In this document: piece by piece, positions 7,118 to 10,405 of the stretch
Numbering within the stretch: position 1 is the stretch's first letter
Layout of the letters: each line of letters opens with the position of its first letter
Assembly: GCF_030389965.1 (NCBI RefSeq)
Contig: NZ_CP128399.1
Location: forward strand, 868,001-932,000
DNA: 64,000 bases
Reading direction: 5' to 3'
Source of the DNA: Candidatus Chlorohelix allophototropha
GTDB taxonomy: Bacteria > Chloroflexota > Chloroflexia > Chloroheliales > Chloroheliaceae
Notes under the pieces: generated by a model
The model's input: the letters and a program-made list of their open reading frames with translations, nothing else
Told to the model about the DNA's origin: nothing
Databases searched by the model: none
Made by a program: the position numbers and the translations under genes

Positions 7118-7642
7118 TTAAATTGCTCCAGCAACAGAGGATCCGCGCAACATGGCTACGCTGCCAGTTCGAACGCTCTCCTTGATACCATAACGCTTTA
7201 ACAAAATAAACAGACGATCAACTTCATCTTCTGGTCCAGTAGATTCAAGTGTTATGCTATCGGGGGCTACATCCAGTACACGTGCTTTAAAGATCTCGGC
7301 AAACTGCATAATTTCAGCCCGGTTTTCAGGCTTGTCGGCGGTGACTTTTATCAGTGCCATTTCACGAATAATACTTTGCTCGGCAGTGACATCGGTTACT
7401 TTAACTACTTCCAGTACCTTATAAAGATGTTTAACCATCTGCTCGACCTCGTTGTCTTCACCGGCAACGGTCAAAGTCATACGGCTAAGATTGGCTTCTT
7501 CAGTATGTCCGACACTCAAACTTTCAATGTTGAAGCTGCGTCTTCGGAACATGCTTACAACCCGATTCAAAGCGCCCGGTTCGTCTTCCAGCAACACAAC
7601 TAGGGTGTGTTTTGTTCCTGTATTTGCAGTTATAGTAGGCAT
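7118..7642 (-). CDS. ilvN: Acetolactate synthase regulatory small subunit
   Basis: 174 residues, typical of the IlvH/IlvN type. This subunit binds the catalytic IlvB and confers valine feedback inhibition. The N-terminal ACT domain (about residues 8-80) begins HTLVVLLEDEPGALNRVVSMFRRRSFNIESLSVG as two recognisable blocks, and the second ACT-like domain includes ALIKVTADKPENRAEIMQFAEIF and SITLESTGPEDEVDRL. It is 64 bp downstream of ilvB with a hairpin in the gap. It is clearly the partner of that gene. Confidence 0.95.
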   Translation of the reverse strand: MPTITANTGTKHTLVVLLEDEPGALNRVVSMFRRRSFNIESLSVGHTEEANLSRMTLTVAGEDNEVEQMVKHLYKVLEVVKVTDVTAEQSIIREMALIKVTADKPENRAEIMQFAEIFKARVLDVAPDSITLESTGPEDEVDRLFILLKRYGIKESVRTGSVAMLRGSSVAGAI

Positions 7643-7706: not shown

Positions 7707-9443
7707 CTAAGCTTCGGTAATAGCATCCAGGTTTGAGCCACCCGGGGGAACCATTGGGAATACGTTTTCACCTTGCGGGATGATGAAATCAATCAATGCC
7801 GGACCGTCCCAATCGTTAGCTTCTTGGATAGTGCGGGCTACTTCATCGCGGTGGGTTACGCGCCAAGCACGCACGCCGAAGGCTTCCGCCAGTTTAACAA
7901 AGTCTGGTCCTGTGATTGGGGTGCTATGGTAGCGACCATCATAGAACACCTGCTGCCACTGCCTAATCATTCCTAACACGCCGTTATTCAGGATGGCTAT
8001 TTTGACGTTGATTTTTTCCTGTACGCAGGTGGCAAGTTCCTGCATATTCATTTGAAAACCGCCATCACCTGTTACCGTCCACACCGGCACATTCTCTCCC
8101 AAAGCCATTTTTGCGCCCATCGCGCTCGGCAAGCCAAAGCCCATCGTACCCAAACCGCCGCTACTAATCAGGGAATTAGCCTTGCGGAAGTTGAAGTGTT
8201 GCGCCACATACATCTGGTGCTGCCCCACATCGGTAGTAATAACCGCTTCTCCGCCTAAAACCTCACCTAAAGTTTTGATGATGAATTGAGGAGGTAACAC
8301 GCCCAACCGTGCCATTTCGTTCTCACGGCGTGCTGCGTCTTTTCCGCGCCAGTGGGTAATTTTTTCCAGCCATTCAGTATGCTTGGCAGCATTGACGTGC
8401 AAGTTCAAAACCTGTAATACTTTTTTCACATCGCCTACAATCGGGATATGCACAGGTACGTTTTTACCGATCTCAGCCGGGTCAATATCAATGTGGATAA
8501 TCTTGCAGTTACGGGCGAAGGATTTCAAGTTTCCGGTTACACGGTCATCAAAACGCATACCCATCGCAATCAGCACATCCGACTCATTGATAGCGTGGTT
8601 GGCATGCAGGTTGCCGTGCATACCGGGCATACCCAAGCTCAAAGGATGCGCGGTTGGGAAACTGCTCAAACCTTGTAAGGTGCTAATAACCGGAATCTCG
8701 GCTCGTTCTGCCAGTTCCATCAGTTCGTTATAAGCTTCGGAAGTGGTTACACCATGACCTACCAAAAGTACAGGACGTTGCGCCTCATTAATCAACTTGG
8801 CTGCCTGTTTGATTTGGCGAGCATGACCGAAAACAGTAGGGTTATATCCACGCATTTTTACTTCCGCAGGATACCCGCTGAAATAGGTTTTGCTGGTAAA
8901 TACGTCTTTAGGAATATCCACCAGAACCGGTCCGGGTCGTCCAGTACCGGCAATGTGAAATGCCTTTTTGATGGTTGTTGCCAAATCGGCAGTATCCATA
9001 ACCAACCAGTTATGCTTGGTAATTGGCAAGGTGATGCCGGTAATGTCAGTTTCTTGGAAGGCATCGCGTCCAATCAGGCTGCGTGTAACCTGACCGGTAA
9101 GAGCAACCACCGGAGCGCTATCCATCATAGCAGTCGCAATACCGGTAACCAAGTTGGTGGCACCGGGCCCGCTGGTTCCCATACAAACCCCTACCTTATT
9201 AGTGGCGCGGGCGTAGCCATCTGCTGCGTGCGCTGCTGCTTGCTCATGCCTTACGAGTATATGCCGGATTTCAGGATATTCGCTAAATACATGATAGAGC
9301 GGCAAAAGCACACCACCGGGATAGCCAAATATAATCTGTACGCCTTCTGCAATTAAGCACTCGCAGAGAATACGCGCACCGTCTAGTTCGCGTTGGGTAA
9401 AGCGAACATCAGCCTGTTGCTGTGTTGAAGTGGTGGTAGCCAT
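7707..9443 (-). CDS. ilvB: Acetolactate synthase catalytic large subunit
   Basis: 578 residues. IlvB joins two pyruvates to acetolactate, or pyruvate and 2-oxobutyrate to acetohydroxybutyrate, using thiamine diphosphate, Mg and FAD. Visible signatures are the catalytic glutamate in ILVRHEQAAAHAADGYARAT (about residue 65), the FAD-domain segment MGMRFDDRVTGNL, and the ThDP motif starting GDGGFQMNMQELATC and ending in NNGVLGMIRQWQ. The C-terminal IPQGENVFPMVPPGGSNL is usual for biosynthetic AHAS rather than catabolic ALS. It is the first enzyme gene of the minus-strand BCAA cluster and lies 255 bp downstream of the Leu/Ile-rich leader ORF, so it is likely under amino-acid-responsive control. 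Confidence 0.97.
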   Translation of the reverse strand: MATTTSTQQQADVRFTQRELDGARILCECLIAEGVQIIFGYPGGVLLPLYHVFSEYPEIRHILVRHEQAAAHAADGYARATNKVGVCMGTSGPGATNLVTGIATAMMDSAPVVALTGQVTRSLIGRDAFQETDITGITLPITKHNWLVMDTADLATTIKKAFHIAGTGRPGPVLVDIPKDVFTSKTYFSGYPAEVKMRGYNPTVFGHARQIKQAAKLINEAQRPVLLVGHGVTTSEAYNELMELAERAEIPVISTLQGLSSFPTAHPLSLGMPGMHGNLHANHAINESDVLIAMGMRFDDRVTGNLKSFARNCKIIHIDIDPAEIGKNVPVHIPIVGDVKKVLQVLNLHVNAAKHTEWLEKITHWRGKDAARRENEMARLGVLPPQFIIKTLGEVLGGEAVITTDVGQHQMYVAQHFNFRKANSLISSGGLGTMGFGLPSAMGAKMALGENVPVWTVTGDGGFQMNMQELATCVQEKINVKIAILNNGVLGMIRQWQQVFYDGRYHSTPITGPDFVKLAEAFGVRAWRVTHRDEVARTIQEANDWDGPALIDFIIPQGENVFPMVPPGGSNLDAITEA

Positions 9444-9625
9444 TTTTTACCTCTTCCTCCTCAGATTAACATAACAATAACGACGTTTATTAGCCTTATA
9501 ACAGCTTGAAACGCGTCCTTGCGATCAAAATTCGTTTTCAAATAAATGAAATTATTTAGTTTTACTGTTTTCGCGTCTTTGCGATTATTATTTTGGGAGC
9601 TATGTTACCGGAAATTTATTTGGGT

Positions 9626-9712
9626 CCGCTTGGCTCTTTACTCGAATACCGGGTGATTGAGGTAACGCTTCTTTGCCTTTACCTACCTGGTATCTTACTA
9701 AAGACCAAGCGG
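9626..9712 (-). promoter_or_regulatory. Long stem-loop overlapping the leader-peptide stop, ilv leader
   Basis: Read on the minus strand, the last codons of the leader ORF (CCGCTTGG, then TCTTTA) pair with TAAAGA-G-CCAAGCGG about 60 bases downstream (9626-9640). The stem continues through an internal loop with ATACC:GGTAT and an inner AGGTAA:TTACCT. The outer 8 bp are perfect. A ribosome stalled in the Leu/Ile run or standing at the stop codon would prevent this stem from forming, which is the logic of attenuation. No U-tract follows, so termination would have to be Rho-type or the effect would be on translation or stability. Confidence 0.6.
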
Positions 9713-9865
9713 GCTAATAACGAGCAGGAGACCGATAAGGCTAATAATAATAAGGCTAATAAGTAGAAGAATAAGGGGATTAATGAGGTTAAGGGGAGTA
9801 GCAGTGGGTAGCGCGAAAGCTTGAGGCTGGTTAGCCATTCGAGAGTAACAGGCTTGGTTCGCCAT
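9698..9865 (-). CDS. ilv operon leader peptide (candidate, 55 residues)
   Basis: A 55-codon ORF upstream of ilvB. A strong GGGGAGGG ribosome site lies 8 bases before the ATG at 9865, so I prefer this start to the ATG further upstream at 9910. From residue 25 to the end, 22 of 31 residues are Leu, Ile or Val (13 L, 8 I, 1 V), with runs such as LILLLISLIIISLIGLLLVI. Codons are mainly CTT, CTC, ATT and GTT. Such density is the hallmark of leader peptides that sense charged tRNA-Leu/Ile/Val before an ilv operon. A short membrane peptide is the alternative, but the helix-breaking N, P, S and G pattern and the overlapping stem-loop favour a regulatory leader. Confidence 0.75.
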   Translation of the reverse strand: MANQACYSRMANQPQAFALPTATPLNLINPLILLLISLIIISLIGLLLVISPLGL

Positions 9866-9938
9866 CTGGCGTTCCCTCCCCTGCATTGGTTCGTTCATAC
9901 GGTACATCACTGCAATTATCCTTTCCTCAAAACATCGG

Positions 9939-9950: not shown

Positions 9951-10012
9951 TTCTCTTATACTTTATAAATGTTATTACCTGTTGTTAGTAACAAATGCTT
10001 TATTTGTGAAAA

Positions 10013-10034
10013 AACCTCCCTTGTTGGGGAGGTT
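10013..10034 (-). terminator. Intrinsic terminator of the small gene 10062-10226
   Basis: An 8-bp perfect stem, AACCTCCC/GGGAGGTT, with a 6-base loop is followed on the minus strand by six T. It lies 28 bp after the stop codon of the small membrane-protein gene and separates it from the ilv leader promoter region. Confidence 0.8.
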
Positions 10035-10061: not shown

Positions 10062-10226
10062 TTAACTAGATTTTTCCCCAGAACCACCCATCTGCTTACG
10101 TAGTATTACTACAAGGAGAGTAAGGATTGCAAGGATAAAAAGGAAGCGGAAGAAGCCCCCACCTTTTTTCGTTTTCTTTTCAATTTTTTCGGCTACTTGC
10201 GCGCTAGTCTTTTTCTGTTTTGCCAT
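10062..10226 (-). CDS. Small single-pass membrane protein, 54 residues
   Basis: A 54-residue protein starts MAKQKKTSAQVAEKIEKK, then has a GGG hinge, one hydrophobic helix (about residues 25-42, FFRFLFILAILTLLVVIL) and a short RKQMGGSGEKSS tail. A GGGAG ribosome site lies about 9 bases upstream of the ATG, and an intrinsic terminator follows the stop, so the unit looks like a complete monocistronic gene. The Lys-rich N-terminus predicts it stays inside the cell. I cannot assign a family or function. Confidence 0.65.
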   Translation of the reverse strand: MAKQKKTSAQVAEKIEKKTKKGGGFFRFLFILAILTLLVVILRKQMGGSGEKSS

Positions 10227-10405
10227 TATGGCATCTCCCTAGGAAGAAGGTTCTAATCAGTATTTACAAATTAAATACTCCCGCAAATTTAACACATTAT
10301 TGAAGAACTTGTCAAGTTATTTTTCAGTTAATTTTGAATGATTTTGCGAATTTAGCCATTCGTATAGATTATTTAATTACATAAATACTCTTTCAATTAA
10401 GAGCT

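Follow-up and report, generated by a model that had tools for sequence, protein, structure and literature searches.

Leader peptides of ilv operons are of a known kind, described in the Enterobacteria and in the Actinobacteria, where they include the Corynebacterium ilvB-II motif (PMC1262725, PMC10272879). The locus described here shares with the attenuators of the enterobacterial ilvBN and ilvGMEDA operons and of actinobacterial ilvB a short ORF upstream of ilvB with a run of Ile, Leu, and Val codons, and an RNA structure at or after the end of the ORF. It differs from them in that no intrinsic terminator follows this ORF (L2) and that a second leader-like ORF (L1) with a terminator lies upstream. 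As in the LEU element of Actinobacteria (PMC1262725), the leader codon run can pair with a downstream Shine-Dalgarno region; however, this pairing is supported in one genome only, and the gene is ilvB rather than leuA. The ilvB-OMG and Leptospira ilvB motifs (PMC10272879) are likewise structured leader RNAs that precede ilvB and have upstream ORFs rich in branched-chain amino acids (BCAAs), whereas our sequence matched no Rfam family at gathering scores and gave nothing meaningful at E values up to 1. Tandem leader ORFs are known from Salmonella mgtCBR, which has been called a singular example and in which the two ORFs serve two different signals (PMC3641672). Both mgtCBR and our locus would have a pair of short ORFs within a single mRNA leader, one or both of which sense charged tRNA via their codons; however, the signal is ATP for mgtM and proline for mgtP, whereas L1 and L2 both carry Ile/Leu/Val runs before a biosynthetic operon. 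The new part appears to be a series of two BCAA-run leaders of which the second lacks a terminator. A search confined to open-access papers gave no description of an ilv leader for the Chloroflexota, which agrees with the initial annotation of the ORF as undescribed for this group.

The window, which is the whole 64,000-nt stretch analyzed here, belongs to the 6.09-Mb genome of Candidatus Chlorohelix allophototropha, in which a rho gene is present. We compared it with four other genomes of the Chloroheliaceae, including Candidatus Chloroheliaceae bacterium and Chloroflexi bacterium 54-19. Their ilvB genes are 77-79% identical to that of the window; the five genomes span three genera, and three of the five are close to each other. 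The features of the locus are listed in Table 1.

On the minus strand, positions 9865 to 9698 translate to 55 codons, MANQACYSRMANQPQAFALPTATPLNLINPLILLLISLIIISLIGLLLVISPLGL followed by a stop codon. The initial annotation had proposed this ORF, with a strong ribosome-binding site, as an ilv leader peptide that senses charged tRNA. The 22 branched-chain residues that it counted among the last 31 were confirmed (8 Ile, 13 Leu, and 1 Val); when the region was shuffled 1000 times with its dinucleotides preserved, the richest open stretch of 31 residues held a mean of 10.2 and a maximum of 16 such residues, and the best stretch in any long ORF of the window held 18. The ORF does precede ilvB, which starts at 9443, 254 nt past the L2 stop. 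However, our comparison of the five genomes showed that the conserved start is the ATG at 9907, behind AAAGGA, and that the peptide begins with MYR or MYS in the family, giving 69 rather than 55 codons. The ribosome-binding site has to be moved with the start: neither the ATG at 9865 nor the purine-rich stretch upstream of it is conserved among the five genomes, whereas the AAAGGA before the ATG at 9907 is conserved in all of them. An ORF of the L2 type (66-71 codons) lies before ilvB in all five Chloroheliaceae, 250-315 nt ahead of the aligned ilvB start. The ilv leaders of E. coli have 32 residues and L2 is about twice as long, as the annotation had anticipated in calling it longer than the enterobacterial leaders. 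L2 is a short ORF with a putative ribosome-binding site and a run of codons for the products of the operon that it precedes, which is the arrangement expected of a leader, and it is presumably translated.

Table 1. Features of the ilvB leader region and the ilv genes in the window
Feature	Position	Strand	Remarks
Probable promoter of the leader-ilv mRNA, TTGACA and TAAATT 18 nt apart (or TTAAAT, 17 nt)	10286..10315	-	Consensus match only
L1, first ORF with an Ile/Leu/Val run, 54 codons, candidate first leader	10062..10226	-	5/5 genomes
Predicted intrinsic terminator AACCTCCCCAACAAGGGAGGTT and U tract	10009..10034	-	Between L1 and L2
L2 Shine-Dalgarno sequence, GAGGAAAGGA in the window	9919..9928	-	AAAGGA 7-11 nt ahead of the conserved ATG, 5/5 genomes
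L2, probable leader ORF, 69 codons (MYRMNE...LLVISPLGL, stop)	9698..9907	-	Conserved in 5/5 Chloroheliaceae
L2 putative control-codon run, 22/31 codons Ile/Leu/Val, with ATT ATT ATT	9701..9793	-	
Predicted stop-codon helix, 5' arm, GCTTGGTCTTTA	9699..9710	-	End of the last codons and first two stop bases
Predicted stop-codon helix, 3' arm, TAAAGAGCCAAGC	9628..9640	-	One bulged base; invariant in 5/5 except a compensatory A to G
ATAAGGCTAATAA, complementary at all 13 nt to TTATTAGCCTTAT, a unit repeated in the run	9487..9499	-	Run units at 9762-9750 and 9747-9735
ilvB Shine-Dalgarno sequence GGAGG	9460-9456	-	
ilvB, acetolactate synthase large subunit	7707..9443	-	Pfam TPP_enzyme N/M/C
ilvN, acetolactate synthase small subunit	7118..7642	-	Pfam ALS_ss_C and ACT domains

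Searches of the genomes with two of the L2 peptides gave convincing matches at the ilvB locus only, and no second copy was found; in the window and isolate L227, L2 has diverged too far for a convincing hit in such a search and was identified by position and alignment. When the region upstream of ilvB was aligned, the run was found to retain 18-22 Ile, Leu, or Val residues in 31 across the five genomes while their order changes. The run had been described as almost all Leu and Ile codons, which holds for the window, whereas the runs of the relatives also contain Val codons. The peptide thus appears free to vary while the run is kept, with the exception of partial amino acid conservation in its N-terminal half; this counts against a pure leader, which would not need it.

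The choice of codons within the run is distinctive. In the five genomes, CTT accounts for 53% of the Leu codons in the runs (6% in ilvB), ATT for 94% of the Ile codons (47% in ilvB), and GTA for 91% of the Val codons (23% in ilvB); TTA and TTG do not occur in any of the five L2 runs. In the window, 12 of the 13 Leu codons in the run are CTT, CTC, or CTA, compared with 45 of 140 in the membrane-like segments of neighboring genes (p = 2.9e-5, with the 42 long ORFs of the window as the reference for such segments). This bias favors control codons over an ordinary membrane segment. The synonymous divergence of L2 among the three closest genomes was also lower than that of ilvB (OR 0.30-0.51; p = 2.5e-4, 2.3e-3, and 0.058, in comparisons that share genomes and are not independent). 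A run of this composition could span a membrane, and the dN/dS of L2 among the three close genomes (0.24-0.46) indicates that amino acid changes are constrained too, as would be expected if L2 were a small membrane protein that acts as a protein and is merely located in the ilv operon. We consider this very improbable, since the codons are sharply unlike those of membrane segments in the same window, the Ile/Leu/Val content of the run is conserved and the order of its residues is not, synonymous sites are constrained, a conserved RNA helix is predicted over the stop codon, and L2 has no copy elsewhere and belongs to no Pfam family.

In all five genomes, GCTTGGTCTTTA is complementary to TAAAGAGCCAAGC, about 60-70 nt downstream. 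The resulting helix has 12-13 consensus pairs, nearly all of which are invariant, and one U-A pair is replaced by C-G through a double change in isolate L227. Invariance alone is no proof of pairing; however, pairing is favored by the double change and by the conservation of a downstream arm that has no coding reason to be conserved, and a predicted conserved helix over the L2 stop codon is thus supported. A classical attenuator has a terminator between the leader stop codon and the structural gene; a predicted terminator follows L1 in all five genomes, but not L2. Behind L2, the window and isolate L227 have neither an intrinsic terminator nor a U tract, and the other three genomes have just a weak hairpin with CTTTTTGG at this position. 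We were unable to identify a conserved competing partner for the stop-codon helix among the five genomes; blocking the 5' arm in the folds yielded no alternative structure shared by the genomes, and a pairing of TAAAGAGCCAAGC with a downstream segment, considered as a classical 2:3 antiterminator, was rejected because none of the five genomes showed it beyond shuffles.

In three close genomes (L004, L005, and L065), a conserved block, GGCGCAGTGAAGCGTCT..AGAACGG..AGTAG..CTACTT..CCGCTTTTTGGCG, is present about 55-110 nt past the L2 helix. It folds into an extended hairpin that contains the weak terminator-like CTTTTTGG, and it is not recognizable in the window or in L006.

The stretch immediately before ilvB bears on whether L2 might control translation rather than transcription of the gene, with slow ribosomes altering a pairing between the run and the region before the ilvB Shine-Dalgarno sequence. 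In the window genome only, ATAAGGCTAATAA, located about 27 nt ahead of the Shine-Dalgarno sequence, is perfectly complementary over 13 nt to a unit that the run contains twice, and it is paired with the run in the minimum-energy fold; the duplex energy in the window beats 199 of 200 shuffles. There is also a precedent in the actinobacterial LEU element, in which the Leu codon run pairs with the leuA Shine-Dalgarno sequence (PMC1262725). However, the pairing was not significant in the four relatives, where 22, 161, 35, and 26 of 200 shuffles were as good, and we regard translational control as unlikely to be the main role of L2. A small ORF rich in Ile, Leu, and Val before ilvB (minus strand, 9541..9461), whose stop codon overlaps the Shine-Dalgarno sequence, was found in the window only and was taken as chance.

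A further ORF of this kind, L1, which had been missed, lies upstream of L2. It is 35-54 amino acids long in the five genomes, belongs to no Pfam family, and sits between a probable, conserved promoter and a predicted intrinsic terminator. A perfect TTGACA with a -10 element matching at least 4 of 6 positions (10 of 12 in all) was found upstream of L1 in all five genomes, and neither the L1-L2 interval nor the stretch from L2 to ilvB has a comparable site conserved among them. The run codons of L1 include CTT CTC GTA GTA and are leader-like in four of the five genomes. With an OR of 0.13-0.21, L1 shows the lowest synonymous divergence of all, below that of ilvB. The terminator, AACCTCCCC-AACAA-GGGAGGTTTTTT, has a stem of -12.6 kcal/mol in the window and of -12.6 to -14.2 kcal/mol over the five genomes, and is of the sequence type found in the attenuator terminators of ilvB leaders elsewhere in the Chloroflexia. 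The end of L1 was not complementary to the terminator arm (held fixed) beyond shuffles in any of the five Chloroheliaceae; in genome 54-19, the antiterminator was strong by duplex energy, and with a fixed arm it was not above shuffles there either. The predicted terminator after L1 is therefore clear, whereas its antiterminator is not. An automatic scan of the 900 nt upstream of ilvB at 87 loci detected two run ORFs in four of the five Chloroheliaceae and in none of the 82 others; in the fifth, L227, both ORFs are present and L1 falls below the codon cut-off of the scan.

L1 begins with a Lys-rich segment and has an Arg after its run, like a small, single-span membrane protein, and this, together with the lack of significant antiterminator complementarity, raises the possibility that L1 is an unrelated gene with its own promoter and terminator, that L2 is the sole working ilv leader, and that the ilv transcript starts between the two. 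TTCAAA-19-TATAAT before L2 in isolate L227 and, in the window, a 9/12 match whose spacer is 15 nt could serve such a start; however, no promoter is conserved at this position. L1 adjoins L2 and ilvB in all five genomes although the preceding gene changes, from selA in the window to hydrolase-like genes in two relatives and an acyltransferase-like gene in a third (the latter two names being read from the sequences). Its leader-like codons, its low synonymous divergence, and a terminator of the attenuator type of the class are also not what an unrelated gene would predict, and we think it rather unlikely that L1 stands apart from the ilv operon. Most likely, L2 comes second in a tandem pair of leader-like ORFs, for which the promoter pattern would fit a single transcript.

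The reading that we prefer, with a probability of about two-thirds on the available sequences, is that L2 encodes a regulatory leader peptide for the ilv operon and that it follows another such leader in tandem. An ilv leader that senses charged tRNA fits the conservation of L2 at ilvB in all five genomes, the lack of other copies, the codon choice, the synonymous constraint, and the helix. The original proposal of such a sensor is upheld to this extent; what it did not foresee is that L2 follows another leader-like ORF and that the terminator comes after L1 and not after L2.

On this reading, the two ORFs may act together as follows. Transcription would most likely start at the TTGACA promoter upstream of L1 and proceed through L1, the intrinsic terminator, and L2 into ilvBN. 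When Ile-, Leu-, or Val-tRNA is uncharged, ribosomes would slow on the runs of both ORFs; a slow ribosome at L1 would favor read-through of the terminator, as appears to hold where other Chloroflexia have a single leader. With a ribosome close to the end of the L2 run, or on its stop codon, the helix would be open; otherwise it could close, and its state would serve as a second checkpoint on the expression of ilvB. Given that L2 has no conserved terminator behind it, the likeliest output would be Rho-dependent termination or RNA polymerase pausing within the untranslated 250-315 nt ahead of ilvB, and the next candidate would be translational control. At a little under even odds, L1 acting on a terminator and L2 acting via the stop-codon helix and a terminator-free output, in series on one transcript, might provide two successive readings of Ile/Leu/Val-tRNA charging with different weights, L1 giving more to Val and L2 more to Ile and Leu.

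Single ilvB leaders are widespread in the Chloroflexia. Our automatic scan found an ORF with an Ile/Leu/Val run at 63 of 90 ilvB loci, or about 62 of 90 after one probable false hit (L148) is discounted. For nearly all of these leaders outside the Chloroheliaceae, a GC-rich, GCCTCCC/GGGAGGC-type hairpin comes next, within about 20-55 nt. These loci resemble ours in codon choice (CTT/CTC, ATT, and GTA), in the position of the leader before ilvB, and in the type of terminator that follows L1. They have one leader with the terminator directly after it, and several families show complementarity between the leader end and the terminator's 5' arm (beyond shuffles at 14 of 14 loci in family f7, with mixed results in others), whereas L2 has its own stop-codon helix and no terminator. 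The 58 leaders of other Chloroflexia show the same codon bias as L2, with GTA at 74% versus 2%. According to theory, attenuators use codons read by starvation-sensitive tRNA isoacceptors (PMC1183508), and the bias in L2 and these 58 leaders fits it; the preference for CTT, CTC, ATT, and GTA, as against CTG, ATC, and GTG/GTC in ilvB, would provide a broad comparative case for this theory.

These findings suggest that ribosome-based control of BCAA synthesis extends to the Chloroflexota. Most families appear to have single leaders, the Chloroheliaceae two in series, another family a T-box with a leader, and in a further one none was detected; this pattern offers a natural series for asking how sensors come to be duplicated or combined, and why. 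In family f8, seven ilvB loci (L088-L090, L092-L094, and L110) had no BCAA-run leader within 550 nt, and scans of L088, L089, L092, and L110 against Rfam gave no RNA family. At all four loci examined in family f3, a T-box riboswitch (RF00230) is followed by a BCAA-run leader ORF and then a terminator before ilvB (L117 429-646, L121 376-585, L127 394-608, and L136 423-638; the T-box of L117 has its own terminator), so that two different sensors of tRNA charging would lie in series. The window and its four relatives gave no match to RF00230.

Across the Chloroflexia, Ser codons within the leader runs are mostly AGC (77 of 110 outside the Chloroheliaceae, compared with 71 of 273 in ilvB). CTT AGC and ATT AGC are common in the runs (e.g., 9762-9739 in the window) and place a UAG stop in the -1 frame immediately behind the control codon; ATT AGC also occurs in the ilvGMEDA leader of E. 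coli. Similar ORFs (e.g., LPNLLLLVGLTILLLGIITLK) were observed upstream of ilvB in metagenome-assembled genomes of Ignavibacteria/Bacteroidetes, at -437..-293 (L038), -431..-287 (L074), and -535..-373 (L039) relative to ilvB.
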